From: Elusimicrobia bacterium GWB2_63_16
GTDB taxonomy: Bacteria; Elusimicrobiota; Elusimicrobia; Elusimicrobiales; UBA9959
DNA: 64,000 nucleotides
Assembly (NCBI GenBank): GCA_001799715.1
Contig: MGTZ01000060.1
Coordinates: 30,120-94,119, forward strand
Direction: 5' to 3'
In this document: positions 1 to 37,449 of the stretch, piece by piece
How positions within the stretch are numbered: the first letter of the stretch is position 1
Layout of the letters: every line of letters starts with the position of its first letter
Position numbers and translations under genes: made by a program
Notes under the pieces: model-generated
Seen by the model: only the letters and a program-made list of their open reading frames with translations
Database searches by the model: none
What the model was told of the DNA's origin: nothing

Positions 1-3000
1 AGCAATAATGCCGTGCCTTCCAAGATGATCTCCTTCCTGTTCCAGGGCAGCACGGTGCCGGTTTTCGCCAACGGCGCGGGCCTGGCCTCCACCGACTACA
101 CGGCCTCCCTGTCCTCCGGCACCTACGAGCTCCAGGCCTCTTTCGCCGGCGACGCCTCGTACAACCCCAGCGTCTCCACCCGGGCAGTGACCGCGCTGCG
201 TTATCCCACGCTCATAACCGGGCCAGCCATCACCGTCACGATGAACGAGGTGCTCACCGCCACCGCCACGCTGACCGACTACCTGGCCAGCACCGTGCCG
301 GCCAAGGCGCTGACGTTCACCTTCCAGTCGCAGCCTTTCGTCGACATGACGGACGTCCTGGGCGTGGCCTATTCCACCTACGCCGCCGCCGTCGCCGCAG
401 GCAACTACCAGCTGCCGGTGGCCTTCGCGGGCGACGCCCTCTACGAGTCCACCAGCACCAGTATCCCCGTGCTGGTGAACAAGCGCGTCCCGCTGCTCAC
501 CGTCAGCACGGCCGCCTCCAGGGCGCTGGACGTCTTCACGGCCTCGGCCACCCTGGCCGATAACCTCTACCCGGTACAGAAGCTGGCCGGGCAGACCGTC
601 GCCTTCGAATTCCTGGTGGGCACCACCACCTATAGCGGCAACGGCGTGACCGACGCGCAGGGCCTGGCCGTCTATAACTTTACCGCCCCGGCCTCCACCG
701 GAGCCTACGAACTGAGGGGGAACTTCGCGGGGAATTCCACCTATTATCCCTCGCTCAAGACCAGCACCGTCACCGTCTCGGCCCGCCCCGCCCTGCTGTC
801 CCTGGCCGACGCTGAGACCGAGATCGACGAGCTGTTCCGGACCACCGCCACGCTGACCGACCAGGCCACCCTGCAGCCCGTGGCCACGCGTTTGATAACC
901 TTCACCTTCGGCTCCAGTTCAGCGGCCTACACGGCGGCCGACGGCCAGGCCTCCGTGCGTTACTCGGCCCCCGGCTCTTCCGGGACTTACCAGGTGGACG
1001 CCGCCTTCTACGGCGACGCCACTTACGGCGCCGTCACTTCCTCTTCGACCCTGACAGTCAAGCGGCGCCCGCTGGCGCTGGCGGCCCCGGATATCGCGGG
1101 CATCATCGACGAGGTCTTCAAAGCCACCGTCACGGTGACGGACACGCTCAACGCCGGCGCTGTAGTCGGCCGCAGCGTCAATTTCGTCTTCGCCAATAGC
1201 ACGTTCACCGTACCGACCGGCGCCGGCGGCGTGGCCGTCTCCACCTTCGCGGCGCCTTCCGCCACCGGCCTCTATTACGCCGCCATCAACTTCCCCGGCG
1301 ACGCGCGCTACCTGCCGGCCGCCACCACGGCCCAGCTCACCGTGGACAAACGGCCCGCGGTCATAGACGCCGAACCCGTTACGGCGCGGGCCGCTCAGGT
1401 CTTCACCGCCACGGCCTCCCTGCGCGACGTGCTGTCCCCGGCCTACAAGCCGGACGGGCGCCCGCTGGTCTTCTACTTCCAGGGCAGCAGTTTCACCGCC
1501 CTTACCGACGCCGAGGGCGTGGCCGTCTCCACGTTCATGGCGCCCGCCTCCAGCGGCGCGGTGCGCCTGGACATCTCTTTCGCCGGCGACGCCCGCTACA
1601 CCGCGGCGTCCTCCTCGGAGGCGGTCACCGTACTGCGCCGCCTCTCCCTGCTGACCCTGGAGCCCCTTACGGCCAACGCGCTGGACATCTTCACGGCCAC
1701 CGCCACGCTGACCGACAAGGCTGACGGCACCTACGCCCCTGGGCGCGACGTGATCTTCCACTTCGCCGGCACCAGCGTCACGGCCGTCACCGACGCCGGC
1801 GGCATAGCGTCGGCCGCCTTCAGCGCCCCTGCCTCCTCGGGCGCCTACCAGGTGGAGGCCACTTTCGAGGGCGACTCGGTCTACGACACCAGCTATTCCA
1901 GCGGCGCCTTAGCCGTGCTGCAGCGCCCCGTGGGCATAGCCATAGCCGACAGCTCGGCCTATCCTTTCGAGCAGTTCACGGCCACCGCCACCCTCACCGA
2001 CGGCGCCACGGCGGCGCCGGTGGACAGCCGGCTGCTGCTGTTCAGCCTGGACGGGACGCAGCTGGCCGGGATCACGGACGGATTGGGCGTGGCCACCGCG
2101 GCCTATACGCCCCCGGGCAGCTTCGGCTACTACGAGATCGGCGCCGAGTTCGCCGGCGACGCCACCTACGCGGCCTACGCCGCCACCGGCACGGTCGAAG
2201 TTAAGCAGAGACCCACCTCGGCAGCCTCGCTGGACGCCGCCGCCACGGCCATGGAAGTGTTCATCGCCAGCGCCTCCCTCTCCGACGTGCGTTTCGGCAC
2301 GCCGGTGGAGGGGAAAGAAATGGTCTTCCTGTTCGAGGGGCAGACGAGCAGCGCCGCCACCGACGCGCAGGGCCTGGCCTGGACGCAGTTCTCCGCGCCG
2401 GTCTCTTCCGGCACTTACTTCTTTACCGCCGAATTCCACGGCGACACGGTCTACGAGGTCTCTTCGGCCACCGGCGCCGTGGCCGTCAGCACCCGCTTTA
2501 CCAGGACCATAGCGCGCGACACCAACGCCAACGTGGGAGAGCCCTTCGTCCTCTCGGCCACGCTTACGGACCCGGCCAGGGAAGGCCAGCCCGGCTATTT
2601 CGTGCCTAACGTGTCGCTGCGCTTCATCTTCAAGGACAGGGACGACTTCACCATCGAGGAGGGCTCGGCCACCACCAACGAGATCGGCGTGGCCACGGTC
2701 ACGTTCAGCGGACCCGGCTCGCCCGACGTCTATTACTACACGGCCGTATTCGAGGGCGACTACACCTACACGCCCAGCAGCGCTACCGCCATGGTCAAGG
2801 TGGGCCTGCTGACGTCGCTGGTGGCCAACGACGTGGAGACCGAGGCCCTAGAGAATTTCAAGGTGAAGGCCAAGCTGACCGACTACCTCTCCACCACGCT
2901 CGACGACAAGACCGTGCGCTTCGCTTTCCTCGGCCTCAACGCGGCCGGCATGACCAACGCCGAAGGCGACTCCGGCGTGGCCGCCTCCACGTTCACGGCC

Positions 3001-6000
3001 CCGCCCTCCTCCGGCACCTATAACTATTACGCCTACTTCGACGGCGACTCCATCTATTCGGCCAGCAACGCCACCGGCACCATAACCGTCAAGCTGCGCA
3101 CGGCCTCCATAGTCACGTTCCCGACCAGCGCCCTGTCCTACAGTTCCTTTACGGCGCTGATCGCCCTCAAGGACCTCAAAACCAACGGCTCCATAGGCGG
3201 CCGGGACGTGGAGATCTACTTCAACGGCAGCACCGTCGCGGTCAATACCGACGCCGACACGGGGGTGGCCGGCGCCTCCTTCTTCGCTCCTTACTCCTCC
3301 GGCACCTACAATTACCACGCCTGGTTCGCGGGCGACGACACCTACGCCCCCTCGGTAGGCACCGGCACTCTCACGGTGGCGCTGCGCCCCACCAACATGC
3401 TGTCCTACAATGTCACGGACCTCACCTCCAACAGCACGTTCACGGCCCGGGTACAGATCAAGGACAACGCCAACCTGCCCATAGAGGGGCTCAGCGTGGA
3501 CTTCAACTTCGAGGGCCAATTCGGCATCGGCGTCACCGACTCGCTGGGCATAGCCGAAGCCGTGCTGACCGCTCCGGCCTCCAGCGGCACGTACACCTAT
3601 TCAGCGGTCTTCTACGGCGATGAGCGCTATGCAGGCAGCAACGCCGACGGCAGCGTGGCCGTCGGCCCCAGGCCCACGCTGATGGTCACCGCCGCGGTCT
3701 CGTCCAAGCTGGGTTCGCCGCTGGGGCTCTCGGCCCGCCTGGTGGACACCGCCACGCAGGCCGGCATCTCCGGCAAGCAGTTGAACTTCTATTTCAACGG
3801 GGCCACCCTCACGGCGGCCACCGACGCCTTCGGCATCTCCAGCGTGGCCTTCGTCTCGCCGGCCTCCACCGGCGCCTACTACTACGAGGCGGAGTACGCC
3901 GGCGACGGCCTGACCTACATGGGCAGCTACTCTTCCTCGCCGGTCACCGTAGCGCTCAACTTCACCCGGCTCGAGGCCGCGGACAACATCTCCGTAAAGA
4001 TCTTCGAGCCGCTGCAGGTGCAGGCCATGCTGCTGGACTCCCTGGGCGTCTGGATGCCCGGCCTGCCGGTGACCTTCGCCTTCGAGGGGACCGAGACCGA
4101 GGATTACACCGACGAGTTCGGCCGGTCCACCGCCTCGTTCCCCACGCTGCTGCTGGCCTCCACCGGCACCTACAACTATACCGCCGAGTTCGCCGGCGAC
4201 ACGCTCTACGTGGCCTCCAGCGACACCTCCAACGTGGTCAACGTAACCAGGCGCGACTCGCTGCTGACGGCCGGCAGCCTGATGACCACGCCCAGCAAGC
4301 CGTTCACGGCCGCCGCGCTGCTCTCCGACAACGTCAACGACAGCGTCTTCAACGGCGCGCCGGTCTCCGGCAGGACCATCCTGTTCGAGTTCTTCGACTC
4401 CACGTTCACGCAGGTCTCCTCCGCGCCCACCTCGGCGCTGGGCGTCTCCAGCGTGGCCTTCACCGCGCCGGCCTCCACCGGCACCTTCCTGCTGACGGCG
4501 CGCTTCGCCGACGACGACCCGATCTACGCCGGCTACTTCTCCTCGGCCGCGGTAGTGGTGATGCTCGACGACGGCACCGGGGCCATCAAGACCAAGCTGG
4601 CGGTCGCGCCCGCGCGGGCCTACCTGAGCCAGGTCTTCACGGCTTCCGCCACGCTGACCGCCACCGACGAGCCGGTGCCGGGCAAGGCAGTGATGTTCGA
4701 ATTCTTCAACGGCGTGGCCACCTACCCGGCGGTCGGCTACACCGACGGCATCGGCCTGGCCACGGCGGCCTTCACCGCGCCGGCCTCCTCGGGCACCTAT
4801 ATAATGACGGCCTACTTCGCCGGCGACGCTCAGTTCTCCGCCGCCACGGGCACGGGCACGCTGACCGCCGAGCGCTACCCGGTGTCCCTCGTGGCGCAGG
4901 ACGTCTCGGCCTACGCCAACGAGGTCTTCAGGGCCAGGGCCGTGCTGCGCGACGACCTCACGCTGGCCTACGTGCCCTCGAAGACGGTCACCTTCAGCTT
5001 CTTCAACGGGGTCTCCACCATAACCAGTACCGCCCTGACCAGTTCCACCGGTTCCGCGGAGGTGGAATTCACCGCGCCCGGCGTACCGGGCGACTATTTC
5101 TACACCGCCAGTTTCGAGGGCGACGCCGTCTATCTGGACGCCGCCGACACGGCGTCGCTGCTGATAGCCTCGCGCGGCTCGAGCACCTTCCTGGTGGGCT
5201 ACGACATCGGCTACGACGTCTCGGTAGGCACCGGCGAGGTGGTCGCCGCCTCGGCCACGCTGACCTCCAAGGGCTACCCCGTGCCCGGCAAGCCCGTCAC
5301 CATCACCTTCCAGGGCGTGGCCAGGGTCTCCACGACCAACGCGCAGGGCCTGGCCTTCTCTACCTTCACGGCCCAGGCCTCCAGCGGCACCTTCGTCTAC
5401 CAGGCGGAGTTCATCGCCGACGCCAACTATAACGCCGCCGTGGCCACCGCCGCCGTGCTGGTGGTGTTCAGGAAGCAGCCCGAGCCCCCGGCCTTCAAGG
5501 CCGAGGTCACCTCCACCACCGTCACCCTGGCCTGGACCCAGGTGACCCAGTACCAGGACGAGGTGAAGGAATACATCATAGAGCAGGCGGTCTCGCTGCG
5601 CGGCAACGCCAGCACCTCCACAGCCGTCAGCGCGAGCAGCACCGCCTTCACCTGCGACGTGAGCGAGGACGAGTCCACCTTCATCAAGATCAAGACCAAG
5701 CTCAACGACGAGCAGATCAGCGCCACCACGCTGATAGTGGAGGTGCCCAGCAAGGCCGCCGACCCGGACCGCGTGCCCAACTACTACTATATGAGCCCCG
5801 GCGAGAACCCCCAGGACTGGGCCGCGTGGGTCAGGATCCCCGGCAAGGTCATGGACAAGGTCTCGGCCAACAACGCCTTCGATATCTCGGTGGAGAAGGA
5901 CGTCAATCCCGACTTCCTGGCCGCCTACACCGTCAAGCCTACCGGCGCGCAGTCCGCGACCCTGGAAAAGGACCTGCGCACCGCCGACAGGAAAGGCGTG

Positions 6001-6489
6001 AAGCTGACCATAGCCTACCCGCAGGGCGGCACCGGCACCTCGGCCGCGGGCCAGGTGGCGCTGTACTGGTATAACGGCGTGGAATGGGTCAAGCTGGGCG
6101 GCGAGATAGACGTGCTGACCGGCGAGATCTACACCTACTCCCGCGTGCTGGGCCAGTTCGCCGTGCGGGCCGACACGCTGGCCTCCGAGTTCACGCTGAC
6201 CAAGGTGGCGCCGCGCATCTTCACCCCCGACGCGCCCGACGCCACCCCCGGCAAGACCATCAGCCGCGCCACCTTCTATTTCGAGAACCCGGCCGGCGGC
6301 GAAGTCACCATCCGCATCTTCGACATCACCGGCGCGCTCGTGCGCAGGAACCTGGAATCCGCCGGCGCCAGCATGATGTTCTGGGACGGCCGCGACCAGG
6401 CCGGCGCGCTGGTGAAGGGCGGCGCCTACATTTACCAGATCGAGGCCGGCGAAGAAGTGATCACCGGCACCGTGGTGGTGGCCAAGTAG
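1..6489 (+). CDS. Giant secreted Ig-repeat protein with FlgD-type C-terminal domain (5' partial)
   Basis: The frame is open from base 1, so the N-terminus lies outside the window; about 2,160 codons are visible. The first ~1,815 codons are about 19 tandem Ig-like repeats of roughly 95 residues. Each starts near 'FTATATLTD' and ends with a block like 'APASSGTY' followed by 'FAGD..Y'. A fibronectin-III-like domain follows (about residue 1826, counted from the GTG at 13), then a linker. The last ~100 residues (from about 2060) are a FlgD-Ig/type 9-like sorting domain with 'VTIRIFDITGALVRR', 'WDGRDQAGALVKGG' and a terminal 'GTVVVAK'. Such architecture is known from surface adhesins and filament-like stalks exported to the outer surface. 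The stand-alone sorting-domain gene and the PorV-like gene just downstream suggest it is cargo of an outer-membrane export system. Function is inferred; the repeats are clear. Confidence 0.85.
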   Translation, partial: SNNAVPSKMISFLFQGSTVPVFANGAGLASTDYTASLSSGTYELQASFAGDASYNPSVSTRAVTALRYPTLITGPAITVTMNEVLTATATLTDYLASTVPAKALTFTFQSQPFVDMTDVLGVAYSTYAAAVAAGNYQLPVAFAGDALYESTSTSIPVLVNKRVPLLTVSTAASRALDVFTASATLADNLYPVQKLAGQTVAFEFLVGTTTYSGNGVTDAQGLAVYNFTAPASTGAYELRGNFAGNSTYYPSLKTSTVTVSARPALLSLADAETEIDELFRTTATLTDQATLQPVATRLITFTFGSSSAAYTAADGQASVRYSAPGSSGTYQVDAAFYGDATYGAVTSSSTLTVKRRPLALAAPDIAGIIDEVFKATVTVTDTLNAGAVVGRSVNFVFANSTFTVPTGAGGVAVSTFAAPSATGLYYAAINFPGDARYLPAATTAQLTVDKRPAVIDAEPVTARAAQVFTATASLRDVLSPAYKPDGRPLVFYFQGSSFTALTDAEGVAVSTFMAPASSGAVRLDISFAGDARYTAASSSEAVTVLRRLSLLTLEPLTANALDIFTATATLTDKADGTYAPGRDVIFHFAGTSVTAVTDAGGIASAAFSAPASSGAYQVEATFEGDSVYDTSYSSGALAVLQRPVGIAIADSSAYPFEQFTATATLTDGATAAPVDSRLLLFSLDGTQLAGITDGLGVATAAYTPPGSFGYYEIGAEFAGDATYAAYAATGTVEVKQRPTSAASLDAAATAMEVFIASASLSDVRFGTPVEGKEMVFLFEGQTSSAATDAQGLAWTQFSAPVSSGTYFFTAEFHGDTVYEVSSATGAVAVSTRFTRTIARDTNANVGEPFVLSATLTDPAREGQPGYFVPNVSLRFIFKDRDDFTIEEGSATTNEIGVATVTFSGPGSPDVYYYTAVFEGDYTYTPSSATAMVKVGLLTSLVANDVETEALENFKVKAKLTDYLSTTLDDKTVRFAFLGLNAAGMTNAEGDSGVAASTFTAPPSSGTYNYYAYFDGDSIYSASNATGTITVKLRTASIVTFPTSALSYSSFTALIALKDLKTNGSIGGRDVEIYFNGSTVAVNTDADTGVAGASFFAPYSSGTYNYHAWFAGDDTYAPSVGTGTLTVALRPTNMLSYNVTDLTSNSTFTARVQIKDNANLPIEGLSVDFNFEGQFGIGVTDSLGIAEAVLTAPASSGTYTYSAVFYGDERYAGSNADGSVAVGPRPTLMVTAAVSSKLGSPLGLSARLVDTATQAGISGKQLNFYFNGATLTAATDAFGISSVAFVSPASTGAYYYEAEYAGDGLTYMGSYSSSPVTVALNFTRLEAADNISVKIFEPLQVQAMLLDSLGVWMPGLPVTFAFEGTETEDYTDEFGRSTASFPTLLLASTGTYNYTAEFAGDTLYVASSDTSNVVNVTRRDSLLTAGSLMTTPSKPFTAAALLSDNVNDSVFNGAPVSGRTILFEFFDSTFTQVSSAPTSALGVSSVAFTAPASTGTFLLTARFADDDPIYAGYFSSAAVVVMLDDGTGAIKTKLAVAPARAYLSQVFTASATLTATDEPVPGKAVMFEFFNGVATYPAVGYTDGIGLATAAFTAPASSGTYIMTAYFAGDAQFSAATGTGTLTAERYPVSLVAQDVSAYANEVFRARAVLRDDLTLAYVPSKTVTFSFFNGVSTITSTALTSSTGSAEVEFTAPGVPGDYFYTASFEGDAVYLDAADTASLLIASRGSSTFLVGYDIGYDVSVGTGEVVAASATLTSKGYPVPGKPVTITFQGVARVSTTNAQGLAFSTFTAQASSGTFVYQAEFIADANYNAAVATAAVLVVFRKQPEPPAFKAEVTSTTVTLAWTQVTQYQDEVKEYIIEQAVSLRGNASTSTAVSASSTAFTCDVSEDESTFIKIKTKLNDEQISATTLIVEVPSKAADPDRVPNYYYMSPGENPQDWAAWVRIPGKVMDKVSANNAFDISVEKDVNPDFLAAYTVKPTGAQSATLEKDLRTADRKGVKLTIAYPQGGTGTSAAGQVALYWYNGVEWVKLGGEIDVLTGEIYTYSRVLGQFAVRADTLASEFTLTKVAPRIFTPDAPDATPGKTISRATFYFENPAGGEVTIRIFDITGALVRRNLESAGASMMFWDGRDQAGALVKGGAYIYQIEAGEEVITGTVVVAK

Positions 6490-6508: not shown

Positions 6509-6859
6509 ATGAGAAACTTCCTCAACGCCTTACTACTCCTCGCCCTGCTGGCGTCGCCCGCGGCGGCCGCTTTCGCCCTGACCAAGGTGACGGCCCGCGT
6601 CTTCAGCCCCGGCGAGGCCAACCCGGACGTCAACCGCGCCCGCTTCCATTTCACCAACCCCGAGGCGGGGGAGGTCACCATCCGCATCTTCGACATCAAG
6701 GGCGCGCTGGTGCGCAGGAACCTGGACTCGGAGTCGGCCGGCGTGATGTACTGGAACGGCAGGGACCAGGGCGGCTCCGTGGTGAGGGGCGGCATCTATA
6801 TTTACCAGATCGAGGCCGGCGAACAGGTGCTCACCGGCACCGTGGTGGTGGCTAAATGA
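6509..6859 (+). CDS. Stand-alone FlgD-Ig/sorting-domain protein with signal peptide
   Basis: This 116-residue protein is a signal peptide (about residues 1-21, hydrophobic run ending 'SPAAAAFA') followed directly by one FlgD-Ig domain and nothing else. The domain is nearly the same as the last ~95 residues of the giant Ig protein upstream. Both contain 'EVTIRIFDI.GALVRRNL', 'WDGRDQ' or 'WNGRDQ', 'YIYQIEAGE' and end 'GTVVVAK'. It starts 20 bases after the upstream stop and its own stop overlaps the next ATG (ATGA), so the three genes are probably co-transcribed. It looks like a duplication of the sorting domain alone. It might act as a cap, a competitor for the export machine, or a structural subunit; none of this can be told from sequence. 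Confidence 0.75.
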   Translation: MRNFLNALLLLALLASPAAAAFALTKVTARVFSPGEANPDVNRARFHFTNPEAGEVTIRIFDIKGALVRRNLDSESAGVMYWNGRDQGGSVVRGGIYIYQIEAGEQVLTGTVVVAK

Positions 6860-8541
6860 AACGGTCCTATAATATGAAGACTATCTTCGCCATCTTCTCC
6901 CTGCTCTGCCTGGCGGCCCTCGCCGCGGCGCCGGCGCGCGCCGCCTTCGAGGACGTGGAGACCGGCCCCAGGGCCTCGGCCATGGCCGGCGCCTACGCCG
7001 CCCAGTCCGAAGGCATCTCCTCCGTTTTCTACAACCCCGCCGGCATCATCGGCACCACCCGCTACGAGGCCGCCCTCGCCCAGCAGAAGCTCTACCTCGG
7101 CCTGACCGACGGCAGCGCCATCTCGCGCAACGCCATAGCCTTCGGCCTGCCGCTGGCCTTCGGCGGCTCCTACTGGGGCACCGCCGCCGTGGGCCTGGAT
7201 ACGCTCAGCCTAGACAGCCTCTACAGCGAGTCCCGCCTGCGCATAGCCTGGGCCTACCCGCTTAAAGAGCGGCTGTGGGCCGGCCTGGCCATAGCCCGCA
7301 TGGGGGTGACCTACGGCAGCGACGCCTATACCGCCGTGAACCCGGTGCTCAGCAGCGCCAAGGAAATGTCCGCCATGGGCCTCGACCTCGGCGCCGTCTA
7401 CAGCGCGGAGCTGGCCGACTTCGGCCTCTCCATCCAGAACGCCAACGAGCCGGACCTGGGCATCAAGTACGCCAACAAGGTCTCCCGCAAGATCAGCCTG
7501 GGCATGGCCCTCAAGCGGCAGGCTTTCACCTGGAACACCGACCTGTCCCTGTCCGGGCAGGATATCAAGATCAAGACCGGCGCCGAGGTGCCGGTAATGA
7601 AAGAGACTTACGGCGACCGGCTGCAGGCCCGCGGCGGCTTCAGCGTGGGCTCGCGCGACTACCGCTCGCTCGCCGCCGGCTTCGGCTACCGCCGCGCCTC
7701 CTACCGCGTGGACTATTCCTTCGTCTACCCGCTCAGCGGCCTGGCCGACACCATGGGCTCCCACCAGCTCGGGCTGTTCGTCGCCTGGGGCGAGGCCCGC
7801 GGCCCGCTGGCCGACCGGGAGAACCAGTATTCCGACGAGGCCGGGGAGAAAGGCCGCGGCGGCGGCAAGGGGGACGGCGCCGGCGAGGGCGAAGGCCTGC
7901 CGCAGAAGACCGAACCGAGCAAGCAGGACCTGCAGAAGGCCGGCAAGCTGCTGCGCGAGGCCAGGCTCAGCCTGCGCTCCGGCGCCTACGCGAAGGCCGA
8001 GGCCGCTTACAAGAAGGCCGACGAGCTGCTGATGAACACCGACCCGTCCATCAAGGAAACCACGCTCAAGATGAACGCGGTGAGCGAGATCCTGCCCGAG
8101 GCTACCGCCCAGGCCGGCCGCGACGACCTGCTGCGCAAGTCCGTCAACCGCTACGCCGACAAGAACACCGACGCGGTGCTCTACATCACCTACGCCCGCC
8201 AGAAGTGGCCGAGGGACATAGCGGTCGCAAGGTTGTATAATCTCATCAGCCGGGAATTCCCGGAGACGGCCTCGGAACTGCGCATCCTGCCCGGCATCAC
8301 GATCATAGACCAGCTGCTGCAGGACGCCCTGGACTTCATCCGCAACGGCCGCTTCATCCAGGCCATTTCCACCCTGCAGCGGGTGCTGCAGCTGGAGCCC
8401 GACAATATACCGGCCCTGACCCGCATGGGCTCGGCCTACTGGGCGATGGAAAAGAAGGATATCGCGAGGAAAAACTGGCGGAGGGTTTTGGAACTTGATC
8501 CCGGTAATACGGAAGTTAACCAGTTCATGAAGATGAATTAA
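6856..8541 (+). CDS. PorV/UPF0164-like outer-membrane barrel fused to a C-terminal TPR domain
   Basis: The 561-residue product has a signal peptide, then a PorV/PorQ-like (UPF0164) section. This carries the family's start motif 'GPRASAMAGAYAAQSEG' followed by 'VFYNPAGI', then many short amphipathic strands to about residue 310. A Gly/Glu/Lys-rich linker (about 320-355) leads to TPR-like helices (about 356-561), including 'ALTRMGSAYWAMEKKDIA'. PorV proteins of the type 9 system are outer-membrane shuttles for sorting-domain cargo. The position after two sorting-domain genes fits that role by analogy. The ATG at 6856 overlaps the previous stop; a second in-frame ATG at 6874 gives an equally good signal peptide and neither has a clear ribosome site. 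The fused TPR is unusual and may serve as a periplasmic docking arm. Confidence 0.75.
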   Translation: MKRSYNMKTIFAIFSLLCLAALAAAPARAAFEDVETGPRASAMAGAYAAQSEGISSVFYNPAGIIGTTRYEAALAQQKLYLGLTDGSAISRNAIAFGLPLAFGGSYWGTAAVGLDTLSLDSLYSESRLRIAWAYPLKERLWAGLAIARMGVTYGSDAYTAVNPVLSSAKEMSAMGLDLGAVYSAELADFGLSIQNANEPDLGIKYANKVSRKISLGMALKRQAFTWNTDLSLSGQDIKIKTGAEVPVMKETYGDRLQARGGFSVGSRDYRSLAAGFGYRRASYRVDYSFVYPLSGLADTMGSHQLGLFVAWGEARGPLADRENQYSDEAGEKGRGGGKGDGAGEGEGLPQKTEPSKQDLQKAGKLLREARLSLRSGAYAKAEAAYKKADELLMNTDPSIKETTLKMNAVSEILPEATAQAGRDDLLRKSVNRYADKNTDAVLYITYARQKWPRDIAVARLYNLISREFPETASELRILPGITIIDQLLQDALDFIRNGRFIQAISTLQRVLQLEPDNIPALTRMGSAYWAMEKKDIARKNWRRVLELDPGNTEVNQFMKMN

Positions 8542-8611: not shown

Positions 8612-10060
8612 ATGAAAAGCAAGAACCTCTTAACTTTCGCGCTGCTGGCCGCGGCCCTTCTGGCCCCGGCGGCGGCGCAAGCCCAGTCGCTGGAAGCGCT
8701 GCGCAGCAAGACGGCCCTGGAGGCGCAGATAGAAGAGCGCCTCCGGTCCATGATCTCTTCCTACCTCAACACCAAGGAAGTCGCCGTGGCCGCCAAGGTC
8801 AACGTGCTGGTCAGCCGCAAGAACGACGATCCCAAGAGCGGCGTGCGCAAGTGGGACGACAAGGACGAACTGATCCTGCCCGGCGTGCCCGCGGCTACCT
8901 CGATGACCAAGGATTCCGGCGCGGCCAAGGCCGCCGAGGCCGCCAAGCGGCAGGTGCGCCTGGGAGTGGACAGCGTGAACATCTGGATCATCGTGGGCAA
9001 GCCGGTGGCCAAGGACCAGGAGACCAAGATCAAGAAGCTGGTCGGCGACGCGCTGGGCCTGGACACCGCCGTTGGCGACACCATTTCCGTGGAGAGCACG
9101 CTGCCGGAGAAGCCTTCGCGCGCGCTGGATATCGGCGCCATCGTGGCCCTGGTCTGCCTGGCCGTGCTGGCCGCCTTCCTGTACGGCCCTTTCCGCGGCT
9201 TCCTGGCCCGCCTCAACGAGAACCTGGCCGCCCTGGCGGCGGCGAAGAAAGGCCCGGCCGAGCACAAGTCCGGCGGCGGCGGGGACATCACCCTGGCCGG
9301 GGGGGACGACATGCCCGCCGAGACCACGATGTCGGGCGCGCTGGCCATAGCCGGCGGCGGCGGCGGGGCGTCGGTGCTCTCTTTCGATTCCGGCGACAAC
9401 ATCCCGCTGGAAAAGTACGTCACCAAGGACAACGTGGACGACCTGATGCTCATCCTGCACGACGAGCCCGCCGAAGTGATAGCCAAGGTGGTGCAGCGCA
9501 TCCCGCAGAAGCTGGCCTTCACGGCCATCCCCAAATACAAGATGAAGGAAGTGCTCGAGCAGTTCCTCAAGCGCGAGTTCGACGAGCCGGAGAAGATCAA
9601 GACGCTGCTGGACCGCATCAAGGACAAGATGGCCGGCAGCTTCGGCGGCGAGCAGCGCCTGGGCAACCTGATGCAGATCATGGACAAGAAATCCCAGGAG
9701 CGCACGCTGGCCTTCCTGCGCGAGAAGGACGCGGCCTTCGCCGCGGCCGTGGAGACCCGCTACTTCAAGTTCGAGGACCTGATGCGCTACGACGAGATGG
9801 CGCTGCGCAGGATCTTCCGCAAGGCCGGCGCCGAGCCTTTCGCCCGCTGCCTGAAGAACTGCGACGCCCCCACGCTGGAGGCCTTCCACGAGATGCTGGG
9901 CCCCGCCATCAGGGACCTCGTGAACGCGCGCATGCAGAACATGCTGCTGACCGGCGACACCAACGATTCGGAGCTGACCATCCTGGCCGCCGTGCAGGCG
10001 CTGGCCGCCAAGGGGCTGATCCTGCCGCTGGCCGACGTCAAGCAGGCCGGCAAGGTCTGA
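8612..10060 (+). CDS. Chimeric flagellar-type rotor protein: FliF RBM3-like domain, membrane helix, FliG M/C domains
   Basis: The start has a good ribosome site (AGAAGGAGCAGGTAAAAATG). The 482-residue chain has a signal peptide or N-terminal helix (1-25). A periplasmic section (about 26-165) resembles the C-terminal ring-building region of FliF: 'IEERLRSMISSYL', then 'VNIWIIVGKPV', 'KKLVGDALGLD' and 'GDTISVESTLPEKP'. A membrane helix follows (about 172-194), then a Gly-rich cytoplasmic linker, a FliG-middle-like segment (about 268-340) and a FliG C-terminal-like domain (about 345-475) with the family's 'FKFEDLMRYDEMALRRIF'. The two upstream ring domains, the first periplasmic part of FliF and the FliF-binding FliG N-domain are missing, as expected if the two proteins were joined. 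The torque helix (about 426-445) reads 'AIRDLVNARM' and lacks the adjacent acidic pair of E. coli FliG. In family terms this is a rotor that couples to MotA; a filament-less use is inference. Confidence 0.8.
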   Translation: MKSKNLLTFALLAAALLAPAAAQAQSLEALRSKTALEAQIEERLRSMISSYLNTKEVAVAAKVNVLVSRKNDDPKSGVRKWDDKDELILPGVPAATSMTKDSGAAKAAEAAKRQVRLGVDSVNIWIIVGKPVAKDQETKIKKLVGDALGLDTAVGDTISVESTLPEKPSRALDIGAIVALVCLAVLAAFLYGPFRGFLARLNENLAALAAAKKGPAEHKSGGGGDITLAGGDDMPAETTMSGALAIAGGGGGASVLSFDSGDNIPLEKYVTKDNVDDLMLILHDEPAEVIAKVVQRIPQKLAFTAIPKYKMKEVLEQFLKREFDEPEKIKTLLDRIKDKMAGSFGGEQRLGNLMQIMDKKSQERTLAFLREKDAAFAAAVETRYFKFEDLMRYDEMALRRIFRKAGAEPFARCLKNCDAPTLEAFHEMLGPAIRDLVNARMQNMLLTGDTNDSELTILAAVQALAAKGLILPLADVKQAGKV

Positions 10061-10085: not shown

Positions 10086-10847
10086 GTGGACTTTTCAACC
10101 GTTATAGGATTGGCCCTGGGCGTGGGCTGCGTTTATTACGCCATGGCGGCCGGCGACATCATGGGCCTGCTGTGGGACCTGCCTTCCTTCATCCTGGTGG
10201 TCGGCGGCACCATAGCCTCCACCATGATGACCTTCCCGATGGAAGTCATAAAACACGTGCCGCGCTCGCTGCTGCTGACCTTCTTCCCGCAGAAGGTAGG
10301 CAAGCCGCAGGTTATCATCAACCGGCTCTGCGCGCTGGCCGACGTGGTCAAGGAGAAGGGCGTGGACTCGCTCGCCGAACACACCGTCAAGGACGACAAG
10401 TTCCTGAAGTCCGGGGTAAAAATGATACTCAGCGAATGGGACGAGGACGCCATCAAGGAAAGTCTCGAGAAGGACATGGAATTCACGCTGGAGCGACACC
10501 AGCAGGTGCAGAAGGCCTTCGCGGCGGCCGGCGGCTACGGACCGGTGTTCGGCCTGCTCGGTACGCTCATCGGCATCCTGGGCGTGCTGCGCTACCTCGA
10601 CAGCCCCAAGGCCATGGGCGCCGCCATGACGGTGGCCATCGTTACCACTTTCTACGGCATCTTCATGGCCAATTTCATAGCGCTGCCCACCGCCGGCAAG
10701 CTGGAGAACTACAGCAACAAGGAACTCCTGGCCAAGCAGCTGATGCTGATGGGCGTGCTCTCCTTCAAGAAAGAGGAGTCTTCCCTGAACCTGCGCCGCA
10801 AGCTGGAGAAGCACCTGGGCGCGCAGCACCGCAAAGAGGAAAAATAG
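10086..10847 (+). CDS. motA: MotA-family stator protein
   Basis: The GTG start follows a strong ribosome site (AAGGAGGAGTTAACGTG). The 253-residue product has four predicted membrane helices in MotA order: two near the N-terminus (about 3-22 and 30-50), a long cytoplasmic loop, then two more (about 150-205). The MotA signature is intact: 'YGPVFGLLGTLIGILGVL' with the conserved Pro, then 'AMTVAIVTTFYGIFMAN' and 'ALPTAGKLE' with the second conserved Pro. MotA forms the pentamer that surrounds a MotB dimer and pushes on FliG as ions flow. The FliG-like protein sits immediately upstream and two MotB-like genes immediately downstream, so stator and rotor are encoded together. The family assignment is firm; what the motor drives is unknown. 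Confidence 0.92.
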   Translation: MDFSTVIGLALGVGCVYYAMAAGDIMGLLWDLPSFILVVGGTIASTMMTFPMEVIKHVPRSLLLTFFPQKVGKPQVIINRLCALADVVKEKGVDSLAEHTVKDDKFLKSGVKMILSEWDEDAIKESLEKDMEFTLERHQQVQKAFAAAGGYGPVFGLLGTLIGILGVLRYLDSPKAMGAAMTVAIVTTFYGIFMANFIALPTAGKLENYSNKELLAKQLMLMGVLSFKKEESSLNLRRKLEKHLGAQHRKEEK

Positions 10848-10862
10848 CCGTACCCCGAACCG

Positions 10863-11627
10863 ATGGCCCTGAAGAAGAAAAGCCTTAAAACGCCCGTAGT
10901 CTGGATGACGGTCTACAGCGACCTCATAACCAACGAGGCTCTGTTCTTCATGATGCTTTTCGCCAGCGTGCTCATAGCCTACCAGAAAGGCTTCACGGAG
11001 CAGGAATTCAGGGATTACATGCGCGGCATCTCCACCTCGATCTACAAGAAGGAAGCCGCGGCCAAGACCATGACGGAGACCGGCAAAAAGCTGGCCAGGA
11101 TAGAAGGCATAGCCTCGGTGAAGCTCGGCGACAAGGACCTGCGCATCGTGCTGCCGGAGCCGGTGCTGTTCGAATCCGGCCAGGCCAAACTTAAGGAAGA
11201 GGGGAAACTGGTGCTGACCGAAGTGGGCAAGGTGCTGGCCGCCAGCCGCTACGACCTGGAGATAGAAGGCCACACGGACGACGTGCCCATAACCCAGGCG
11301 GCGCCGGCCGGCATGAAGCGCTGGCAGCTGGCCATGGCGCGCTCCACGGGGCTCGGGCCCTACTATTCCAACCGCGAGCTGTCGGCGGCGCGCTCGCTGC
11401 AGGTGCTGCAGTATTTTACGAGGGAGAGGCTGCTGGCCCCGGAGCGCGTAGCGGCGGCGGCCTACGGCGAGTACATGCCGGCTGGCCCCAACGACAGCTA
11501 CGAGAACCGGGCCAGGAACCGCCGCATAGAGATCAAGCTGGTGCTGCGCGACAGGGCGGCCCTGGTGCGGATGGCGGCCCTGCAGCAGGCCCCGGAGGCC
11601 GCGGCGGCGCCGGGGACGGTCCAATGA
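10863..11627 (+). CDS. motB: MotB-like stator protein with OmpA peptidoglycan-binding domain (ion-conducting type)
   Basis: The 254-residue product has a short basic N-terminus and one membrane helix (about 12-37). It keeps the MotB pattern 'VVWMTVYSDLITN': Asp20 sits where MotB carries the ion-binding Asp (consensus Y-A-D-x-M-T). A linker leads to an OmpA-type peptidoglycan-binding domain (about 100-245) with 'LEIEGHTDDVPI', a variable insertion and 'NRRIEIKLVL'. It should anchor the stator to the cell wall and carry the ion. It starts 15 bases after motA and overlaps the next gene by 4 bases (ATGA). Confidence 0.9.
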   Translation: MALKKKSLKTPVVWMTVYSDLITNEALFFMMLFASVLIAYQKGFTEQEFRDYMRGISTSIYKKEAAAKTMTETGKKLARIEGIASVKLGDKDLRIVLPEPVLFESGQAKLKEEGKLVLTEVGKVLAASRYDLEIEGHTDDVPITQAAPAGMKRWQLAMARSTGLGPYYSNRELSAARSLQVLQYFTRERLLAPERVAAAAYGEYMPAGPNDSYENRARNRRIEIKLVLRDRAALVRMAALQQAPEAAAAPGTVQ

Positions 11628-12265
11628 AGAAGAAGAAACTGGACTTCTCCGAGGCGATGAACGCCTACCTGATGCCCTACATCGGCGTCATGACCATCTT
11701 GTGCATCTTCTTCCTGATCCAGTACGCCGACTACTCGGAGCGCCTGAAGAAAAAGAACGCCGAGCGCACCGAGATCCTGGCACAGGAGGTCAAAGAGGAC
11801 CTCAAGGACCTGCAGGACGCCAAGGTGGAGACGGTGGAGGACGGGATCAAGGTAACGCTGCCCTCTTCCGTGGTTTTCGACCTGAGCATAGCCAGACTCA
11901 AGGACGCGGCCCTGCCCACCCTGGGCAACCTGGCCGCGAGCATCAAGAACCTCGACGAGCGCTACGTGGTGGTGGTGGACGGTCACACGGACGACGAGCC
12001 GGTCTTCTACGGCGGCGACTTCTCGTCCAACTGGGAACTTTCGCTCTACCGGGCCATCAGCGTGATAGATTTCCTCGTGAAAGAGGGGAACAACCCGGAA
12101 CTTTTCGCGGCCGCGGGGCACGGGCAGTACAGCCCGCTGTACCCCAACGATACGCCGGAGCACAAGGCGGCCAACCGCAGGGTGGAGATACTGATACGCA
12201 GGAGGACCGCCCCGTCGGCGCCTCTGGCGGAAGTGGTGAGCGCGGAGCGGCAAACCGCAAATTAA
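11624..12265 (+). CDS. Second MotB-like protein with OmpA domain, lacking the ion-binding Asp
   Basis: This 213-residue protein repeats the MotB layout: a basic N-terminus, one membrane helix (about 14-36) and an OmpA domain with 'VVVVDGHTDDEPVF' and 'NRRVEILIRRR'. The helix reads 'AYLMPYIGVMTILCIFFL' and contains no Asp, so the position used by MotB to bind the ion is not acidic. The nearest acid is Glu10, before the helix. It is translationally coupled to the first motB by ATGA. One MotA with two MotB-like partners recalls AglR with AglQ and AglS of Myxococcus gliding, although those lack the OmpA domain. A heterodimeric stator or a wall anchor without ion flow are both possible. Confidence 0.85.
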   Translation: MKKKKLDFSEAMNAYLMPYIGVMTILCIFFLIQYADYSERLKKKNAERTEILAQEVKEDLKDLQDAKVETVEDGIKVTLPSSVVFDLSIARLKDAALPTLGNLAASIKNLDERYVVVVDGHTDDEPVFYGGDFSSNWELSLYRAISVIDFLVKEGNNPELFAAAGHGQYSPLYPNDTPEHKAANRRVEILIRRRTAPSAPLAEVVSAERQTAN

Positions 12266-12296: not shown

Positions 12297-12677
<381 letters not shown>

Positions 12678-12683
12678 CGCCGC

Positions 12684-14810
12684 ATGCGCCACGCAACGCT
12701 CAAGCCCCTGCTGACGGCCCTGCTGGCCGCCTGCTGCGCGGCCGCGGCCCAGGCCGCGCCGGAGATGATCGTACTGGCCTCCGCCACGTACGACTCCGGC
12801 GCGCTGTCCGACGTGGCCACCGCGCTGGCCGTGGACGCGGCCGGCAACATCTTCGTCACCGGCAACAGCGGCAACGACTTCCTCTCCGTCAAATACAGCA
12901 AGACCCTGGCGCTCACCGTGGGCGCGGCCAGCCTTTACGCCAACGGCGGCAGCGGCAATATCCCGGGCGGCATAGCCGTGGACGGCCTCGGGAACATCGT
13001 GGTGGCGGGTTCCGAGAACAGCGCGGCCAACTACGTCACGCTGAAATACAGCGCCAATTTCGGCGCTCTGCTCTCTTCCGCCGCCTATTCCGGCGGGGTC
13101 GAGGATAAAGCCAACGCCGTGATCACCGACGACCAGAACAATATCTACGTCACCGGCTACAGCAACAACGGCACCGACGATTTCTACACCATCAAGTACA
13201 GCCCCGCCCTGAACCAGGTCTCCAGCGCGGCCTACGACAGCGGCGACCTGGACCAGGCCAACGCCCTGACCTTCAACGGCGACTACCTGATAGTGGCGGG
13301 CCTGACCAAGACGGACGGCGGGACCAACGACAACGTGCGTCTGGTGCGCTACGACAAGAACCTCAATTACCTGCCGCCGGCGGTTTCTTTCGACAGCGGC
13401 GGCGGCGACGTGGCGTACGGCGTAGCCTCCGACGCGCAGGGCAACATCATCGTGGCCGCCCGCCGGGCGGGAGCCACGCCGGACTTCCTCACCCTTAAAT
13501 ACGACAGCACGCTGACCACGCTGATCTCATCGGCGGTCTACGACAGCGGGGGGGTGGACTGGCCCAAGGGCGTGGCGGTGGATTCCAGCGGCAACATCAT
13601 CGTAACCGGGCACACCAATTTCCCCGCGGCCGGTAATTTTTTAACCATCAAGTACGACAGTTCGCTCAACGTACTGTCCACGGCGGCCTATGACGGCGGC
13701 CAGGCCGACATCTCCAACGCCGTCATCGTGGACGCCGAAGACAATGTGATCGTGGCCGGCCAGAGCTACACGGCGACCGACAACTATTTCGTGGTCAAAT
13801 ACAACGCCTCGCCGAAGCTCACCGCCGTGGACGAGCTCTATATCGGCGAGACTTCGAACGTCAACATCATCGGCCGCGGCCTGCTGCCGGACACGGCCGT
13901 CTCTTTCTCCGACACGCTGATCTCCACCGGCGCGGCCTCGTATAATTCAGGCCAGATCACTCTGCAGGTAGCCCCGGCGCCCTCGGTCATACTGGGCTTC
14001 ACCACCATCACCGTCACCAACTCCAACGGCGAGTATTACACTTCCGCCTCGCTGGCCAGGACCCGCCTGCGCCAGTCCATCCCAGCCGCCCAGGCGGCCA
14101 CGATAAGCGCCATGATGAAGCTGGGCCAGGTCACGGTCTCCGTGCCGGCCAACTCCTTCGCGCTGCAGGAGACCATCACGCTCTCTCCGGAAACCGCCGC
14201 TGCCGGCGACATACAGCAGGCCGGCGAGGGCCTTTTCATAGCGGGCAACCCTTCCACCACCTCCCTGCAGAACCTGACGGTCACCCTGCGCTACAGCGTC
14301 GCGGACCTGGGCGACTACCCCGAGGCCGCCCTGTCGCTGGGCTACTACGACACCGCCTCCGGCTGGGTAGCGCTGCCCTCCACGGTCAACACCGCAGCCA
14401 AAACGGTGACCGCCCCGGCCAAGGCGGCCAACAATAAGTACGCCGTCATTAAAGCCGTTTCCAGCGGCGGCGGGGGAGGCATAGGCGGCCCCGGCGGCGG
14501 CAGCGGCATACCGGCCAAGGTCTACCCCAACCCCTACCGTCCCGGCAGCGGCGGCAACTTCGACGATTCAACGCTGGGCGCGGGCATAGTGTTCGCCGGC
14601 CTCGGCGCCGGCGGGTCCTTCAACCTGACCATAGTGGACCTGTCCGGCCAGCTGATACACCAGAAGTCGGGCACGGCCGACAGCGAAGGCCGCTACCTCT
14701 GGGACACCAAGAGCGACTCCGGGGCCGAGACGGCCACCGGCGTCTACATCTATTTCGTCAAAGGAGGGAGCGGGGAACCGCGGAAAGGCAAGTTCTCCAT
14801 CATCCGCTAG
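12684..14810 (+). CDS. Secreted SBBP-repeat (beta-propeller-like) protein with C-terminal sorting domain
   Basis: The 708-residue product has a signal peptide (1-24, ending 'AAAAQAA'). About eight SBBP-type repeats follow (25-380) with the pattern 'A.AVD..GNI.VTG.S', 'DF...KY...L' and 'YDSGG.D'; these are often propeller blades. An IPT/TIG-like Ig domain (about 383-455) and a beta-rich domain come next. The C-terminal domain from about residue 612 starts 'KVYPNPYRPG' and contains 'LTIVDLSGQLIHQ' and 'YLWDTKSDSG', which is type 9/FlgD-like. It begins 6 bases after the receiver gene and has no obvious ribosome site. The next gene is PorV-like, repeating the cargo-shuttle pairing seen twice elsewhere in the window. 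Surface location is inferred. Confidence 0.8.
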   Translation: MRHATLKPLLTALLAACCAAAAQAAPEMIVLASATYDSGALSDVATALAVDAAGNIFVTGNSGNDFLSVKYSKTLALTVGAASLYANGGSGNIPGGIAVDGLGNIVVAGSENSAANYVTLKYSANFGALLSSAAYSGGVEDKANAVITDDQNNIYVTGYSNNGTDDFYTIKYSPALNQVSSAAYDSGDLDQANALTFNGDYLIVAGLTKTDGGTNDNVRLVRYDKNLNYLPPAVSFDSGGGDVAYGVASDAQGNIIVAARRAGATPDFLTLKYDSTLTTLISSAVYDSGGVDWPKGVAVDSSGNIIVTGHTNFPAAGNFLTIKYDSSLNVLSTAAYDGGQADISNAVIVDAEDNVIVAGQSYTATDNYFVVKYNASPKLTAVDELYIGETSNVNIIGRGLLPDTAVSFSDTLISTGAASYNSGQITLQVAPAPSVILGFTTITVTNSNGEYYTSASLARTRLRQSIPAAQAATISAMMKLGQVTVSVPANSFALQETITLSPETAAAGDIQQAGEGLFIAGNPSTTSLQNLTVTLRYSVADLGDYPEAALSLGYYDTASGWVALPSTVNTAAKTVTAPAKAANNKYAVIKAVSSGGGGGIGGPGGGSGIPAKVYPNPYRPGSGGNFDDSTLGAGIVFAGLGAGGSFNLTIVDLSGQLIHQKSGTADSEGRYLWDTKSDSGAETATGVYIYFVKGGSGEPRKGKFSIIR

Positions 14811-14816
14811 AACGCC

Positions 14817-15983
14817 ATGAAAAGCTCACGCCTCCTCGCCCTCACCGCCCTCGCCGCCCTGTGCTGCGCCGGTGAAGCCCGCGCCGCCGGGGCCTCCTCG
14901 GCCGCCTTCCTGCGGGTGGGCTGGGGCGCCAGGCCCGCGGCCATGGGCGAGGCCTTCACGGCCGCCGCCGACGACGTGGACGCCCTCTACTGGAACCCGG
15001 CCGGGCTTAATTACGTCAAGCGCATGCAGCAGACCTTCGGCCACAACGTCTGGCTGGCCGATACCAGCCTGCAGCACGCGGCCTTCGCCCTGCGCCGCAC
15101 GCCCGACGACGTGATAGGCGCCGGCCTCGGCGGCCTGTCCACCGGCGACATAGAGCGCGGCAACAAGTACGGCTACACCGAAGGCTACTACAGCGCCGGC
15201 GACCTGGTGCTGATAGGCTCCTACGCCCGCACGCTCAAGAACAAGCTCCGGGCCGGCGCCAGCTTTAAGATCATCCGCGAGCGCATAGAGAGCGAGAGCG
15301 GCCAGGCTTTCGCGCTGGACGCCGGCGCCGTTTACGAACGCTCCCCGCGCCTCAAGTTCGGCGCCACGCTGCGCAACCTGGGCACGGGCCTCGCGCTGGG
15401 CGAAGCCGGCACCCCGGGCGGGCTGCCCATGGGCCTGCGCGCCGGCGCCGCCCTGCAGTACAATAAGGACCTGCTGCTCACCTCCGATATAAGTCTGCCT
15501 TTCGACGATTCGCTGGGGCTGCATTTCGGCGCGGAGTACATCTACCCGGCGCCGGTGAAAGGCGCGCGCCTGGCCCTGCGCGGCGGCTTCAAGACCGCGG
15601 CGATGGGCTACCTCGGCGCCATGGCGGCCATCAGCCTGGGCTTCGGCGTGGAGACCGGCGCGCTGGGAGTGGATTACGCGCTGAGCCCCTACGGCGACCT
15701 GGGCATGACGCACCGCCTCAGTCTGAAGATAAAGTTCGATTCGCTCACCGCGAAGCAGGACCAGATCACCCTGGAAAAGAACGGGAAGAAAGTGACCCGC
15801 GCCGCCGCCGACGTCTACGCCGAGACCATGCAGTGGTTCAGGGCCAAGACCGAGGCCGAGAAGCTGGGCAGGGCCGAGCAGGAGACGCTGCTGAAGCGCA
15901 TCATAGAGAAGTTCTCTCCGCTGGGCGTGGACGTCAGCGAAGCTAAAAAGCAACTGGGAGGCCCCGATGCGCCTCCCCGCTAA
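14817..15983 (+). CDS. PorV/PorQ-like (UPF0164) outer-membrane protein
   Basis: The 388-residue product has a signal peptide ending near Ala24. The PorV-family entry motif follows: 'GWGARPAAMGEAFTAAADD' then 'ALYWNPAGL'. Repeated amphipathic strands to about residue 305 fit a 14-stranded barrel of the FadL/PorV kind, and it ends in a soluble, charged helical tail (about 305-388). It follows the SBBP sorting-domain gene by 6 bases and overlaps the next ORF by 17. In type 9 systems PorV collects cargo at the translocon; here the role is by homology and neighbourhood only. Confidence 0.8.
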   Translation: MKSSRLLALTALAALCCAGEARAAGASSAAFLRVGWGARPAAMGEAFTAAADDVDALYWNPAGLNYVKRMQQTFGHNVWLADTSLQHAAFALRRTPDDVIGAGLGGLSTGDIERGNKYGYTEGYYSAGDLVLIGSYARTLKNKLRAGASFKIIRERIESESGQAFALDAGAVYERSPRLKFGATLRNLGTGLALGEAGTPGGLPMGLRAGAALQYNKDLLLTSDISLPFDDSLGLHFGAEYIYPAPVKGARLALRGGFKTAAMGYLGAMAAISLGFGVETGALGVDYALSPYGDLGMTHRLSLKIKFDSLTAKQDQITLEKNGKKVTRAAADVYAETMQWFRAKTEAEKLGRAEQETLLKRIIEKFSPLGVDVSEAKKQLGGPDAPPR

Positions 15984-16578
15984 GCTGGCCTGCGCCCTGG
16001 CCGCGCTGGCCGCCGCCCTGCTGCCGGCCGGCGCGCAGGACGCGCTGGACCGCGGGGCCGGCCTCTTCCTCTCCGGCCGCCTGGACAGCGCCATCGCCTT
16101 CTTTTCCGGCGCGCTGAAAGAGAACCCCAAAGATACCCGCGCCAAAGAGATCCTCGGCCATTGCCTGGCCATAAAGGGCAAGGACGCGCTGAGGGAGGGG
16201 GACTATGCCGGCGCCCGCGACTCGCTGCGGCGCGCCGCGGAGATCTTCCCCAGGAACGATTCGCTCAGGACGCTGGCCCTGCTGGCCGAGCTGGACCGGG
16301 ACGCGCCCACCCCCGCGGTGCCGCTGTCCACGGCGGCGCTGACCACCTCGGCCGAGACCGGCGCGGTGTTCGACTGCCTGTTCGGGGACGGGGACTGCGC
16401 CAAGGGCGGCCGCTACGTCATCCACGTGGTCAGGGCCGGCGAGACCATGGCAGAGATCGCCATCAGATACTACGGCGACCTCAAGCTCTGGGAGAAGATC
16501 TGGGGCGCTAACCCGCAGCTGACCAACCCCCACCGGCTAGAAAAGGGCGTCAAACTGCTCATCCCGCTGGATAAGTAG
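15967..16578 (+). CDS. TPR and LysM periplasmic protein
   Basis: The 203-residue product has a signal peptide (about 1-20), TPR-like helices (about 22-95, including 'AIAFFSGALKENPKDTRAKE') and a C-terminal LysM domain (about 152-203: 'YVIHVVRAGETMAEIAIRYY', 'IWGANPQL', 'LLIPL'). LysM binds glycan of the cell wall, so the protein probably anchors a TPR scaffold to peptidoglycan. The start overlaps the end of the PorV-like gene by 17 bases, so the two are translated together. It may tether the PorV complex, or the Mot-type machine just upstream, to the wall; that is inference. Confidence 0.8.
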   Translation: MRLPAKLACALAALAAALLPAGAQDALDRGAGLFLSGRLDSAIAFFSGALKENPKDTRAKEILGHCLAIKGKDALREGDYAGARDSLRRAAEIFPRNDSLRTLALLAELDRDAPTPAVPLSTAALTTSAETGAVFDCLFGDGDCAKGGRYVIHVVRAGETMAEIAIRYYGDLKLWEKIWGANPQLTNPHRLEKGVKLLIPLDK

Positions 16579-27950: not shown

Positions 27951-27953
27951 GTT

Positions 27954-34569: not shown

Positions 34570-34593
34570 AAGCGCCAGCCGCCGCCAAGCCAT

Positions 34594-37447: not shown

Positions 37448-37449
37448 CC

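Follow-up and report, generated by a model that had tools for sequence, protein, structure and literature searches.

A natural FliF-FliG fusion in Elusimicrobiota: a very likely non-flagellar rotor with its own MotAB-type stator and a probable outer-membrane partner

The window, that is, the whole stretch of DNA analyzed here, covers 64,000 nucleotides of Elusimicrobia bacterium GWB2_63_16 (GCA_001799715.1, contig MGTZ01000060.1, positions 30,120 to 94,119, forward strand), an Elusimicrobiota draft genome in 62 contigs. It opens within a run of genes, all on the + strand, the first of which codes for a secreted repeat protein of 6,022 amino acids. This gene begins ~11.6 kb upstream of the window, which holds the C-terminal part (1..6489) with a domain resembling those of the type IX secretion system (T9SS), although its score (TIGR04183, 18.8 bits) is under the cut-off of 23. 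It is followed by a small secreted protein that consists mostly of a type-A-like T9SS sorting domain (6509..6859; TIGR04183, 27.7 bits versus the cut-off of 23), a PorV/FadL-like outer-membrane barrel fused to a TPR domain (6856..8541), the rotor-like fusion protein described below (8612..10060), a PomA-like MotA stator subunit (10086..10847; NCBIfam PomA model, 2e-52), and two MotB-like subunits (10863..11627 and 11624..12265). The run continues with a single-domain response regulator (12297..12677; Pfam Response_reg, 9.6e-31), a secreted SBBP beta-propeller protein identified by profile (12684..14810), whose T9SS-like tail falls just below the TIGR04183 cut-off, and a PorV/PorQ-family outer-membrane protein (14817..15983; NF033709, 7.7e-47, 160 bits versus a cut-off of 90), and ends with a secreted TPR and LysM protein (15967..16578), assigned by profile and synteny. 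This gene order is retained in other genomes (L006-L013).

Two other regions of the window were noted. At 22185-28991, a secreted protein of 1,921 amino acids with a TIGR04183 tail above the cut-off precedes a gene that by eye codes for a PorV-like barrel, a pair with no motor genes adjoining. Genes for MoxR-type ATPase, DUF58-type, VWA, and TPR proteins at 33580-41803 resemble, again by eye, the Bat aerotolerance operon.

The protein of 482 amino acids encoded at 8612..10060 joins, in line, the ring-building domain RBM3 of FliF, a membrane helix, and the middle and C-terminal domains of FliG. This architecture had been proposed in an initial annotation made from the sequence alone, and both the AlphaFold model and the profile searches bear it out. 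An N-terminal signal sequence (approximately residues 1-25, with a hydrophobic stretch at 6-24; 8612..8686) precedes the periplasmic RBM3 domain (residues 25-165; 8684..9106) and a single predicted membrane helix (approximately residues 172-191, modeled as a helix at 174-191; 9125..9184). On the cytoplasmic side, a disordered Gly-rich linker (residues 213-263; 9248..9400) leads to an armadillo domain like the FliG middle domain (residues 264-342; 9401..9637) and to the FliG C-terminal domain (residues 345-475; 9644..10036), in which alignment to Escherichia coli FliG places the torque helix at residues 426-443 (9887..9940). The Pfam model FliG_C passes its cut-off at residues 369-470 (E 3.9e-10), and FliG_M was matched in 35 of 43 fused relatives. 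YscJ_FliF_C is sub-threshold in the window protein (E 1e-3 at residues 119-162) and passes the cut-off across the full model in one relative (L060). A profile built from these 43 relatives, all from Elusimicrobiota, matched two kinds of PDB entry, namely structures of the middle and C-terminal domains of FliG, with 1lkv at E 1.9e-71, and the M-ring of FliF, with 6scn at E 7e-11.

Prediction of the monomer structure gave a ring-building fold in the periplasmic part and a FliG-like fold in the C-terminal part. The model has a mean pLDDT of 75, being mostly near 90 in both domains and below 50 in the collar (71-101) and the linker (213-263). Residues 22-166, with the RBM3 fold order alpha-beta-beta-alpha-beta, matched FliF RBM3 (8z5v_A, Z 14.6, rmsd 1.8 A over 101 residues), and residues 258-472 matched FliG (8wiw, Z 15.4). 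The FliG middle-domain part fits 4fq0_C (Z 10.6, rmsd 1.9 over 77 residues) and residues 385-471 fit the MotAB-bound FliG 8ucs_H (rmsd 2.0 over 86 residues). The periplasmic part had been described as keeping only RBM3. RBM1 and RBM2 are indeed missing (YscJ_FliF gave no match in this genome by a profile search in which positive controls matched), as is the first FliF membrane helix, but the collar is shortened rather than wholly gone. What is left of it is a short disordered loop with LPGVP at residues 89-93 (an LPGxP motif), which we take to resemble the collar motif of FliF and whose P90 is invariant in 43 of 43 fused relatives. The absence of the FliG N-domain, also stated in the initial annotation, agrees with profile and structure matches that begin at the middle domain. 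A retained FliG_N was ruled out, as the Pfam FliG_N matches in some relatives overlap FliG_M and are armadillo cross-matches.

Other ring-building proteins, such as SpoIIIAG and the injectisome components PrgK and EscJ, share the fold (Z ~9), but the protein is nearer to FliF RBM3 by both fold and sequence and those proteins have no FliG domain. A generic protein of the SpoIIIAG type was ruled out, since the profile of fused relatives reaches SpoIIIAG at only 4e-4 versus 7e-11 for FliF, and OsmC/Ohr folds among the structure matches (Z ~9, weaker than FliF) were taken as chance likeness. The extra matches of a first iterative profile were rejected as rotors because the profile had drifted to barrel-TPR proteins, owing to TPRs and signal peptides in common; rotors were chosen by a FliG_C match plus position.

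We found FliG_C in 48 of the 149 Elusimicrobiota genomes surveyed. Two families (f2 and f10) account for 94 genomes, mostly small, with one rotor-bearing genome by the counts in our survey tables; 47 of the remaining 55 genomes carry FliG_C. The genome of the window has five fused rotors, each with a matching MotA (five in all), and in addition one protein of the TolQ/ExbB type. Neither the FliP export gate nor FliM/FliN (FliMN_C) was found in it, and each was found in one of the 149 genomes by searches in which positive controls matched; FliF RBM1/2 was above the cut-off in one genome as well. All three occur in the same genome (G032, one of the 47 above), whose FliG is ordinary and separate (355 aa; L050, G032:C2) and which has no fused rotor. 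The absence of flagellar genes from the genome of the window, which is 91% complete, is repeated in related genomes, and rod, hook, and filament are taken as absent too because the export gate is missing. The rotor of a cryptic flagellum was thus ruled out, given the missing FliP, FliM/FliN, and RBM1/2.

In a tree of the FliG middle and C-terminal domains, a branch with support of 93/99 parts all fused proteins from flagellar FliGs of several phyla, including that of G032, a split that carries no decision on which side is older. The five rotors of the genome represent separate subfamilies; that of the window rotor is fast-evolving, and the other four reach across families or classes. No relative was found in the viral contigs scanned, and plasmid matches to the fused query covered at most about one third of it (the FliG part), none holding most of the query. 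Variants of the architecture were seen as well. One genome (G037) codes for a 346-aa protein that has the FliG middle and C-terminal domains and neither RBM nor membrane helix and is close to a fused protein of that genome (L056 7836-8876). Some fused-rotor ORFs are longer, with long extra regions (L045 5917-9651, 1,244 aa; L046 7920-10442, 840 aa; L047 5289-8123, 944 aa). One rotor subfamily bears a C-terminal TPR domain on the cytoplasmic part (L015 7857-9800, L049, L051-L055, L057-L062, L064, L065, L067), with MotA/MotB genes ~3 kb downstream in several loci.

The MotA gene and the two MotB-like genes lie directly downstream of the window rotor. By profile and alignment, the first MotB (MotB1) keeps the channel Asp and an OmpA peptidoglycan-binding domain; the second (MotB2) also has an OmpA domain, with Gly at the position of the channel Asp. 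MotB2-like partners in other lineages carry Asp, Asn, or Gly there. Tandem MotB genes with one copy lacking the Asp (Gly or Asn instead) were seen in the window (11624-12265) and at L033 10232-11011, L034 2440-3195, and L060 12552-13178. Such tandem genes suggest, at the level of sequence, asymmetric stators with a single ion site, and MotB1 and MotB2 may form a heterodimer with one working ion site. The distances among rotors and among MotAs are correlated (Mantel r 0.78, p 2e-4, 30 loci), also between paralogue classes, and the closest paralogue in the genome of the window agrees for rotor and MotA in 19 of 25 cases. Such agreement favors cognate pairs, the measure being one of joint inheritance and not of contact. 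MotA was not found in 14 of the 47 fused loci within the stretch read (mostly ~7-8 kb on each side). The outgroup and E. coli branches of the MotA tree are very long, and hence we make no claim on whether flagellar or non-flagellar stators came first.

The contacts between rotor and stator seem to be altered. In E. coli, MotA R90 contacts FliG D288-D289 and MotA E98 contacts FliG R281 (PMC12505986). In the MotAs aligned to that of E. coli, the channel prolines of TM3 and TM4 are kept in 36 of 36, the R90 position is K or R in 29, and E98 is kept in 6. The window rotor has A, A, R, and L at the positions of E. coli FliG R281, D288, D289, and R297, and a one-residue ambiguity in the alignment of the torque helix restores no acids at those sites. 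Among 49 FliG-like proteins scored against E. coli FliG, the K264 position is basic in 33, R281 is kept in 1, and the D288 and D289 positions are acidic in 31 and 22, respectively. By these counts, both sides of the E98-R281 pair are mostly lost, and R90-D288/D289 is retained in part. The earlier remark that the adjacent acids of the torque helix are missing is thus right for the window protein but does not extend to the family, most members of which keep an acid there; the loss of both is peculiar to the clade of the window. Its corollary, that the contacts between MotA and rotor must differ, fits the near-complete loss of R281 and the rarity of E98.

The gene immediately preceding the rotor codes for a barrel that resembles the PorV of T9SS in predicted structure (8gl6_F, Z 32.8, rmsd 2.5 over 277 residues) and by profile (E 1.3e-24). 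In 33 of the 47 fused loci, a barrel-TPR gene directly precedes the rotor gene and shares its strand; in the other 14 none is so placed. Full-length barrel-TPR proteins were found in 45 of the 47 rotor genomes versus 1 of the 102 others (Fisher p 1.6e-34), figures in which the profile leans towards rotor loci because it was built from rotor neighbors and the p-value is overstated because the genomes are related. Distances of the FliG part and of the barrel-TPR protein correlate with r 0.93, which speaks of joint inheritance, not of contact. It is therefore probable, from structure, profile, co-occurrence, and co-diversification, that the barrel-TPR protein is the outer-membrane partner of the rotor. 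In Flavobacterium, the gliding adhesin SprB has a barrel, SprF, as its binding partner (PMC9143113), and in Porphyromonas the TPR-containing PorW connects the ring with the translocon (PMC8754138). By analogy with both, we take the TPR domain as the presumable link between rotor ring and barrel.

The reading we favor, and consider probable, is that of a non-flagellar rotor driven by MotAB and linked to a type-IX-like surface module of the outer membrane. The RBM3 domains would assemble as a periplasmic ring. Each subunit would cross the inner membrane by one helix, below which its FliG part, the middle and C-terminal domains, would contribute to a small track. A MotA pentamer, anchored to peptidoglycan by the MotB1/MotB2 pair, would roll on this track as ions flow and so turn the ring, in a motor that would work without export gate, FliM/FliN, or FliG_N. 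Torque might then cross the periplasm to the PorV-like barrel through its TPR domain, and the barrel would hand it to a type-IX-secreted surface module that includes the adhesin-like protein of 6,022 residues. Movement of surface adhesins (gliding) would be the likeliest output, ahead of powering secretion. The components of this reading differ in strength. The analysis establishes the homology and predicted fold of rotor and barrel, the homology of the stator by sequence, the order of the genes, the lack of key flagellar genes, and co-inheritance, and from these we infer that a ring forms and rotates, that it is tied to the barrel, and what its task is. That rotor and stator form a non-flagellar pair is very likely; that the rotor turns is likely; that the barrel and surface module are its load is probable; adhesin movement or gliding as the output is put forward tentatively. 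Against the reading as a whole stand the torque helix of the window rotor, without the E. coli acids, the near-general loss of the R281-E98 contact, and the loci (14 of 47 in each case) in which no MotA was found nearby or the barrel-TPR gene is not just upstream.

The main alternative is that the same rotary motor powers type-IX-like secretion through an SprA-like channel instead of moving adhesins. PorV-like proteins and T9SS-like tails are encoded in the window, and the genome has an SprA-like ORF of 1,776 aa (G000:C8:5031), whose best stretch (E 4.5e-22) is below the NCBI cut-off. The usual T9SS motor may also be missing, GldM having been found in 0 of 149 genomes by a search in which no control genome matched either. 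However, SprA-like ORFs of ~1,800 aa, again with matches below the NCBI cut-off, occur in 129 of the 149 genomes and fused rotors in 47. The f2 and f10 genomes are nearly all without rotor and most of them have SprA-like genes, and five rotors per genome exceed the need of one secretion system. We therefore regard secretion as an unlikely task of the motor. As an observation in its own right, the nearly phylum-wide SprA-like ORFs look like a divergent type IX translocon without detected GldM.

Slightly less likely still is a non-rotating scaffold or load sensor, in which the ring and the MotA/MotB-like proteins would form an envelope-spanning anchor or an ion-driven clamp. The clade of the window, with neither the torque-helix acids nor R281, would suit such a role, as would a MotB2 devoid of the channel Asp and a response regulator within the gene run. 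The invariant MotA channel prolines, the Asp kept in MotB1, the mostly basic R90 position, and the co-diversification of rotor and stator argue instead for a turning rotor. Functionless, decaying remnants of a lost flagellum, one explanation considered for the single rotor proteins often kept by non-motile genomes (PMC12199754), are very improbable here, given intact ORFs of a fused architecture kept phylum-wide and in five copies, an operon conserved in several MAGs, and a well-supported separation from flagellar FliGs that include one of a flagellated relative. An assembly or annotation artefact fusing two genes, conceivable in a fragmented draft, has practically no chance of being right and was refuted by independent assemblies, as four orthologous contigs from other genomes carry the whole fusion and a further four carry part of it, with ORFs of fused length in dozens of other genomes.

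The rotor shares with the flagellar one (FliF MS-ring and C-ring FliG) the RBM3 fold, one of the FliF membrane helices, the FliG middle and C-terminal domains, and the partnership with MotA/MotB, but it is one protein instead of two, has a shortened collar, has lost the R281 contact, and does without RBM1/RBM2, the first FliF helix, FliG_N, FliM, FliN, and the export gate. FliF has been set in line with FliG in engineered fusions of Salmonella and Vibrio (PDB 8z4d, PMC11481574), which are laboratory constructs in flagellated species, whereas the fusion of Elusimicrobiota is natural, minimal, and found in non-flagellated genomes. With the MotAB/PomAB stators (FIT clade, PMC12505986), its stator has in common the MotA_N segment, the large cytoplasmic part, the channel prolines, and the MotB OmpA domain; it differs in its non-flagellated genome, in having MotBs in tandem, of which one lacks the channel Asp, and in the mostly lost E98. 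PorV-like barrels, T9SS-like tails, an SprA-like gene, and a giant surface protein beside a barrel gene recall the type IX secretion and gliding machine of Bacteroidota (GldL/GldM, SprA, PorV, SprF-SprB), from which the system differs in its motor, MotAB with a FliG rotor, and in the TPR domain on its barrel; GldM was not found in the 149 genomes by the search without a control match.

In the published open-access papers searched, FliF-FliG fusions are named in a handful of flagellar studies, as engineered constructs, and no paper on Elusimicrobia was found that describes the fused rotor. The initial annotation, limited to the sequence, had not seen the phylum-wide family in non-flagellated genomes, the barrel-TPR link, the giant surface protein, or the tandem MotB pair. 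Known rotor and stator parts are found in a machine that, by its missing export gate, FliM/FliN, and RBM1/2, is not a flagellum. According to a 2025 survey, 11% of non-motile species have rotor proteins but no filament proteins, which led its authors to ask what half a motor might be good for (PMC12199754). This question becomes testable with a rotor that is conserved, multiplied, and operon-encoded and that has a stator of its own as well as a plausible load in the outer membrane. A stator study of the same year treated the torque-generating part of MotA as specialized for flagellar motility (PMC12505986), and the MotAs of Elusimicrobiota suggest that stators of the flagellar type can also work in a different machine. 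Possibly, although we hold this loosely, the whole system is a separate class of ion-driven rotary machine. Its stator would be of the flagellar type and its rotor a single minimal protein, and it would turn or drag outer-membrane adhesin complexes with no flagellar-type secretion apparatus. The fusion defines a small rotor fit for structural work. If the proposed mechanism is true, rotation could drive a type-IX-like surface in two ways, through GldLM and through this motor, and living cells would show a rotor to be useful where there is no flagellum, whether that rotor predates the flagellum or descends from it.
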